Shown here piece after piece: positions 1-35,309 of a stretch of DNA of 36,010 nucleotides. Within the stretch, counting starts at the first letter, position 1, and each line of letters starts with the position of its first letter. The notes under the pieces are model-generated. The model did not search any database. It saw only the letters and a list, made by a program, of their open reading frames with translations, and was not told where the DNA came from. The DNA is from Nitrososphaerota archaeon (GTDB lineage Archaea; Thermoproteota; Nitrososphaeria; Nitrososphaerales; Nitrosopumilaceae). The stretch is from assembly GCA_029782475.1 (NCBI GenBank), contig JARPSM010000040.1:1-36010 (forward strand), in the 5' to 3' direction. A program made the position numbers and the translations under genes.

Positions 1-2
1 TG

Positions 3-104
3 TGTTACTCCCATCTGCATTGCAAGTATGGAGGTGCGTGTGTCTTTTTTACGCTGATTTATCACGTATCTTATTTGGTTTGCTGTTAATCTTGTTACCA
101 TCAT
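3..104 (-). CDS. Partial N-terminus of a probable integrase/transposase HTH domain, truncated by window edge
   Basis: Minus-strand reading MMVTRLTANQIRYVINQRKKDTRTSILAMQMGVT... open to the window edge; resembles the HTH start of archaeal transposases/integrases (LT..QIR.I..Q.KK......A..M.VT). Confidence 0.4.
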   Translation of the reverse strand, partial: MMVTRLTANQIRYVINQRKKDTRTSILAMQMGVT

Positions 105-140
105 TTTTCTTGATCGGCATAGACGATAATAATCGCTTAG

Positions 141-241
141 AACTTTGTTTCCTAATTCATTTGAACGTGACTAGACATGCCAAAAATTATTCAAAACAAT
201 GATCAATTTGTGCCCAGAATTTGTAATTAGGAAACAAAGTT
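141..241. mobile_element. MITE-like non-autonomous element, 101 bp, 17-bp perfect terminal inverted repeats, 8-bp TSD TCGCTTAG (133-140 and 242-249)
   Basis: Left end AACTTTGTTTCCTAATT; right end AATTAGGAAACAAAGTT; flanking identical TCGCTTAG on both sides; no ORF inside. Confidence 0.8.
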
Positions 242-468
242 TCGCTTAGACTATGTCTAATTTTAGGGCGACCTAATTTTCGTACAACAGACTACTTTCG
301 GGTTGAAAAAGTGGACAACGCCTTAGTAGACAATACGCTTAAGTTCAAAAAGATAGCAGAATATTCATGAACACATTAGATTATCTTATAAAACAAAATG
401 ATCAAATTTCAACATCAATGCCTGAATGTGATAACATCAATACAGATGGAGGAGAAGAGAAGTAGGAT

Positions 469-33717: not shown

Positions 33718-33920
33718 TACAATTCGTCATCGCGGATTTTAACATAAAAACTTTATTCTGAGACCAAAATTTAATCCTAAATCGAACTCTGTTTCCTAAT
33801 TCCACATGTTTAGGCACAAATCACGACCGAAAAATATTTGGATCACGGATTTTACAACTATTTTGTGTCTCAGAAGATAAAATATGATGACCAACGATAC
33901 ATCTCACGTGGGGAACACTC

Positions 33921-34959
33921 TTGCATTTGGATTCAGAGACAATGTCTGAAGGCGTTGATGAATTAAACGATGGTAGTGTAGGGCATCCTTTTGTTTATTC
34001 TGATGCATGTTTCATGGCTGCTGCTGCATTATTTAAAAATACAATAAAGATTCCATACAGACAGTTGCAGAGAATCATTGAGATCTGTCTTAAGGGAAAA
34101 GACACTCCAAAATTTTCTGCAATATGGAAGAGAATCAACAAGATAAGATAGAGGACAGTGACGGCAAAACCTGGTTTGCAGATGGAAAAAAGAAGATGGA
34201 GATTGTGTTTCTTGTAGGCGACTCGACAGGCCTCAAACCAACCATCGTGGTGACTGGATGGGAGACAAGTGGAACGTACGACGTGGATTCATAAAGTTGC
34301 ATGTGATGGTGGACAGTAAGACTAAGAAAATATATGCTGCAACTATAACAGATGAGAAGACAGGGGATGCACCGCAATTTAAGAAATTAGTAGACGAGGC
34401 AATGCAGAATATTAAAGACTCACCCAATGTCACTGCATCTGATGAATTGTGTGTTGGTGCAGACGGAGCATATGATTCTAATGAGCATTTTAAACATTGT
34501 AAAGAAAATGATCTGATTCCTGTAATTCCAATAAGGAAGAATTTTTCATATAAAAAAGATGGAGATACTACAAGAAACGAACAGGAGTTGATTCAGCTTG
34601 GCAACTGTAAAATAAATCGTAAAAACAAGCAGGTATTTGATAAACTCACAGAAGAACAGAAACTAGAAAAACAAAAGCAATGGGAAAAAAATTACAAGAA
34701 TGAAATGGCATTAAACAAGCAGGTATTTGATAAACTCACAGAAGAACAGAAATTAGAAAACCAAAAAGAGTGGAAAGAAAATGTCAAATATCAAAGGCGT
34801 TGGGCAGTTGAGATTGCATTTTCTACATACAAAAGGATTTTTGGTGAGAATATCTCCTCAAGCAGTAGATGGGATCAGGTAGTACAAGAGATAAAATTCA
34901 AGATTATGATATACAACAAGATGATTGACAGGGCAATGGAGGTGGTGGTGGGAGTCTAA
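33921..34959 (+). pseudogene. IS5-like transposase, at least two frameshifts (near 34140 and 34235)
   Basis: YRQLQRIIEICLKGKDTPKFSAIWKRINK / MEIVFLVGDSTGLKP / TNHRGDWMGDKWNVRRGFIKLHVMVDSKTKKIYA...VGADGAYDS...RRWAVEIAFSTYKRIFGE in three frames. Confidence 0.8.
34623..34787 (+). repeat. Direct duplication at a 90-bp interval inside the transposase
   Basis: AAACAAGCAGGTATTTGATAAACTCACAGAAGAACAGAAA at 34623 and at 34713; encodes NKQVFDKLTEEQKLE twice. Confidence 0.85.
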
Positions 34960-35309
34960 AAGAACACCATGACAAATCTGGGATAGTGAAAATCTAAGTC
35001 AGAATTGGGAAACAGAGTTACTTGCAGGTTATCGGCTATAATATGACGGCATAGTCTCTGAGAAAACAAAATTGACGGGATGTATAACTAGCGTGAGCTA
35101 TAACATAAAATGCAAAAAATCCAAGAATTCCTTATGTTTTGGCGAGATGTGGTTTTTAATGCATCGAGTTTGATGTGAAATGCTGGAAATTATGCCTTGA
35201 AAAATCTGTAAAATTGTCAAAAGTGGACAAAGCCCACCCACCTAAATTATTCTTCAATCAAATTGACGCTTAGAGTTGAGGTTATAATGTTGTAATTTGT
35301 GTAAACATC

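Follow-up and report, generated by a model that had tools for sequence, protein, structure and literature searches.

The 101-bp sequence at positions 141 to 241 (plus strand) of the window, by which we mean the whole analysed stretch of 36,010 nucleotides (contig C147), is very probably a non-autonomous DNA transposon (MITE) that was moved by an IS5-family transposase of this genome with duplication of an 8-bp target. We found dispersed copies with precise ends, 8-bp target-site duplications (TSDs), empty sites, one end shared with an IS, and an 8-bp duplication around a sister IS. The dispersal, the independent TSDs, and the empty sites support the reading given in the preliminary description, a non-autonomous derivative mobilised by an IS5-type transposase. 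Such a transposase would recognise the 17-bp ends together with the adjacent subterminal block and would move the 101-bp unit in trans; repair of an 8-bp staggered cut would then duplicate the target.

Structure and copies of the 101-bp element

The element is bounded by perfect 17-bp terminal inverted repeats (TIRs), AACTTTGTTTCCTAATT at 141 to 157 on the plus strand and AATTAGGAAACAAAGTT at 225 to 241 on the minus strand. The TSD TCGCTTAG directly adjoins it on the left (133 to 140) and on the right (242 to 249). TIRs and TSD are thus present in the window sequence exactly as first described, and the claimed lack of coding capacity was borne out: the 101 bp hold no ORF and allow incidental read-through only. 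The window was also scanned for inverted repeats with arms of 12 bp or more, 60 to 400 bp apart and bordered by a perfect direct repeat of 8 bp. The MITE was the single such site in the whole window, and the same scan of 100 mononucleotide shuffles of the window returned zero sites. Near the MITE, at 750 to 1397, lies an IS66-family transposase (PF03050), apparently N-terminally truncated.

BLAST of the 101 bp against its own genome (G000; 1.92 Mb, 157 contigs), the search for dispersed copies proposed earlier, revealed nine near-full copies on nine contigs. Subfamily A comprises the window copy and the copy at G000:C150:4506-4606, which are identical at 101 of 101 positions, and the copy on C49, identical over its 96 bp. 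The copies on C14, C124, C99, and C100 form subfamily B, with approximately 84 to 87% identity to A and 96 to 98% among themselves; those on C70 and C7 are decayed. Decayed ends were seen in several copies (C7, C70, C99, C100, and C49). The C99 and C100 copies (loci L006 and L008) have their right flank in common over approximately 79 bp, while their left flanks differ. Given the common right flank, these two insertions may not have been independent, and the MITE may have been moved or duplicated together with part of another IS at these loci.

In this genome, exact occurrences of the TIR core TGTTTCCTAATT are mostly found in MITE copies or at IS ends. Two single TIR-like ends, at C27:15170 and C75:3903, were examined and are considered relics or chance occurrences. 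The latter (G000:C75:3903-3925, locus L061) reproduces the IS left tip exactly over 23 bp and stands alone, with no other IS sequence adjoining.

In a set of 150 genomes (94 of them of good quality), the MITE was matched at E <= 1e-4 in its own genome only; the 149 others, congeners included, gave no match at this threshold. A 24-base internal pattern of the MITE was absent from the genome_contigs and viral_contigs collections, which may leave out the genome of origin. The family is apparently species-restricted, as judged from this sequence comparison.

Target-site duplications and empty sites

Three copies retain intact 8-bp TSDs, perfect on both sides and independent of each other: TCGCTTAG in the window, CTTTAGAA on C150, and TCACACAC on C14. 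This answers the earlier proposal that each copy should have its own 8-bp TSD for these three; in the other six of the nine copies, the TSD is decayed or unrecognisable. The C49 copy is preceded by CTATTGTA and followed by CTATGTA (aligned as CTAT-GTA), and its right TIR, which adjoins this decayed TSD, has lost 4 to 5 bp. For C124, C99, C100, C70, and C7, no defensible TSD was recognised.

To look for empty sites, we joined both flanks of four MITE copies with one TSD and searched with the joined sequences. All three copies with intact TSDs have an empty site, in the same genome for the window copy and in relatives for the C150 and C14 copies, so that the check for empty alleles suggested in the preliminary description came out positive.

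The empty allele of the window site, G000:C14:903-1114, lacks exactly the 101-bp element and one TSD, and contains TCGCTTAG once. By direct comparison it is approximately 95% identical to the window target overall, with 97% identity to the left of the site and 91% to the right. The target is a repeated sequence at 1 to 322 (minus strand) in which the MITE interrupts the start region of an ORF. This repeat ends near 322, and its last 31 bp or so are found many times over in the genome. Its terminal sequence at 283 to 322 reads TTGTCCACTTTTTCAACCCGAAAGTAGTC on the minus strand, is likewise widespread there, and probably marks where an IS present in many copies ends. The ORF (MMVTRLTANQIRY...) looks to us like the N-terminus of a transposase, and a Pfam search with it gave nothing firm. 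The window MITE was probably inserted into another mobile element.

The other two empty sites lie in genes. On C150, the MITE interrupts a TFIIB-like gene, a paralogue. In seven relatives the alignment continues across the site without a break, and in G003 the site falls within an intact 306-amino-acid (aa) TFIIB ORF. When the C150 flanks were joined, read-through gave IDKFNDDSKGKPLAYKIRQ, matching the G003 TFIIB protein. The interrupted paralogue (L001, 1281-1908) also carries further frame breaks. On C14, a KaiC-like gene is interrupted; G002 and 15 more relatives (16 in all) align through the site, which in G002 is located close to the end of an intact KaiC-like protein of 245 aa. The joined C14 target exceeds that of the relatives by 2 bp. 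The extra 2 bp may be due to slippage in a CACACA run, and the TSD there is perhaps altered.

Empty sites also bear on the hairpin that the MITE strand forms through its ends, which is stable (z -4.1) and would suit an ordinary regulatory or structured-RNA repeat (REP-like, terminator, or attenuator) with palindromic ends arisen by chance. However, the TIRs alone suffice for this hairpin. The insertions are exact, with one target word duplicated; two genes are interrupted that are uninterrupted in relatives, and one insertion lies in another repeat. We consider a regulatory repeat extremely improbable, and the regulatory-hairpin reading was rejected on the empty sites.

The IS5-family element and the source of the transposase

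The IS near the other end of the window (33785 to 35019, plus strand) had been described as IS5-like, and its best NCBIfam model, NF033579, places it in the IS5 family (PF01609, E 1.1e-22). It is a decayed copy and a probable relative of the transposase source. Its ends are AACTCTGTTTCCTAATTCC on the left (from 33785) and AATTGGGAAACAGAGTT on the right (35003 to 35019); the left end differs from the MITE TIR at 1 of 17 positions, in agreement with the one-position difference noted previously. The DDE transposase is frameshifted: the C-terminal two thirds are encoded at 34258 to 34959 (plus strand) and the N-terminal part in another frame at 33918 to 34214, and the window fragment, being partial, reaches 113 bits on NF033579, below the cut-off of 140. 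In addition, the pseudogene contains an internal tandem duplication of approximately 90 bp at 34623 to 34795 on the plus strand (34623 to 34705 and 34713 to 34795, 85.5% alike), which is absent in the intact transposase of a sister IS, the congener in genome G044. That transposase has an open frame of 334 aa and scores 195 bits against the same cut-off, with PF01609 and PF13737. Directly beside the window IS, at 35025 to 35097, is a 3' fragment of a different IS transposase; contig C100 (L008) terminates in this sequence too.

We looked for TSDs around the window IS and the G044 IS and found none at either. Another sister IS, an internally deleted copy of 849 bp in a congeneric genome (G054), is flanked on either side by TTTCTCCA, an 8-bp duplication. 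Elsewhere in the order, more distant members of the family frequently have 8-bp repeats beside tips like TGCTTTGTTGCATAATTC, and a few fit 9 bp. A different duplication length in related ISs had been named as evidence against the MITE; the relatives leave 8-bp duplications, apart from the few that fit 9 bp. The IS here may be close to the ISH1- and IS903-like groups of the IS5 family, with which it has in common a DDE_Tnp_1 transposase (NF033579), tips of the form xxCTTTGTTnnnTAATT, and the 8-bp duplication made by ISH1. It differs in that its tips begin with AACT and not GGCT.

How the MITE relates to this IS was assessed at both ends. The window IS and other partial IS copies match the MITE in the TIR and, at one end, beyond it. 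The right 36 bp of the MITE (MITE 66 to 101; window 206 to 241, minus strand), consisting of the TIR and the subterminal block GGCACAAAT, are 84 to 86% identical to the left 37 bp of the IS (E 5e-5 to 1e-3). For the non-TIR part of this end, comparison with the left ends of the window and G044 ISs gave shuffle p values of 0.0006 to 0.013 (24 comparisons), and the G044 IS retains the block TAGGC(A/T)CAAAT at nearly the same spacing from its tip. The subterminal region of the MITE left end had no significant match to IS right ends. Since the right end resembles IS left ends above shuffles and there is no significant right-end match, the MITE probably goes back to an element of this IS5 family, but simply deleting the interior of the visible window IS copy would not produce it.

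Because it is frameshifted and without a duplication, the IS copy in the window is an unlikely transposase donor. It is the only copy with both ends, and no intact transposase of this IS is assembled in the genome; four contigs (C87, C41, C105, and C28) end inside further copies of the IS. A transposase scan of genome_contigs yielded no confirmed relative. With the window copy dead, a further copy that is unassembled has to supply the active transposase, unless it has been lost.

The missing intact transposase and the clear resemblance of just one MITE end to the window IS would also fit a different mover, an unassembled element of IS5 type whose tips are the same, the window IS being only a cousin. 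Moreover, the IS left ends at the ends of C87 and C41 carry the tip AACTTTG, as does MITE subfamily A, whereas the window IS has AACTCTG. However, these two ends match the window IS with 99% identity across 135 bp and thus most likely belong to the same IS, the difference being one of copy and not of family. We regard a separate mover as unlikely and retain the IS5-family element seen in the window as the probable partner.

Two complete copies with 101 of 101 identical positions, a third with 96 of 96, their different targets, and the absence from congeners agree with the fairly recent insertion proposed at the outset. Because identical copies occupy different targets and relatives lack the element, we infer recent activity; this comparison points to recent mobility and is not proof of present mobility. 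The family could by now be an immobile relic with no working transposase left, as the decayed ends in five copies and the pseudogene state of the visible transposase might suggest. Against this stand the identical copies, each in a different target and two of them with perfect TSDs, and again the absence from congeners, although these indicate recent and not present mobility. We judge the relic explanation rather improbable and favour a recently mobile MITE.

Relation to known elements and meaning for the lineage

Archaeal MITEs with IS5-family partners are known, for example those partnered by ISMba19, ISMma12, and ISMac15 (PMC3852290). Like these, the present element is short (101 bp here, 140 to 252 bp there), has TIRs of similar length (17 bp versus 15 to 17 bp), and is multicopy with an IS5-family partner in the genome. 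It differs in its TSD, 8 bp instead of 0 or 3, and in its host, which is not a methanogen as the hosts there are. From its gene content and the preliminary description, this host is probably a Nitrosopumilus-like archaeon. A review (PMC10969869) lists Sulfolobus, halophiles, and others for archaeal MITEs. IS5 elements, similar to the IS5-family partner here, were reported in several Thaumarchaeota species (PMC6563490); a word search of the main text of that paper found no mention of MITE, miniature, or non-autonomous elements. In our search of open-access papers, no thaumarchaeal MITE was described.

The 101-bp element is a real MITE that moved recently and has a probable IS5-type partner. Though clear-cut, it is an ordinary case of an already known type of element, and it leaves ideas of MITE mechanism unchanged. 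That a very recent expansion of a species-restricted MITE inactivated the TFIIB paralogue and the KaiC-like ATPase gene, and may thereby have changed host regulation, is a tentative proposal that we hold doubtful. What the element provides is a MITE family with empty sites, documented for a probably ammonia-oxidising archaeal group, and a usable strain marker. In addition, insertion of such an element can disrupt a paralogue of a general transcription factor in this lineage, as the C150 copy shows.
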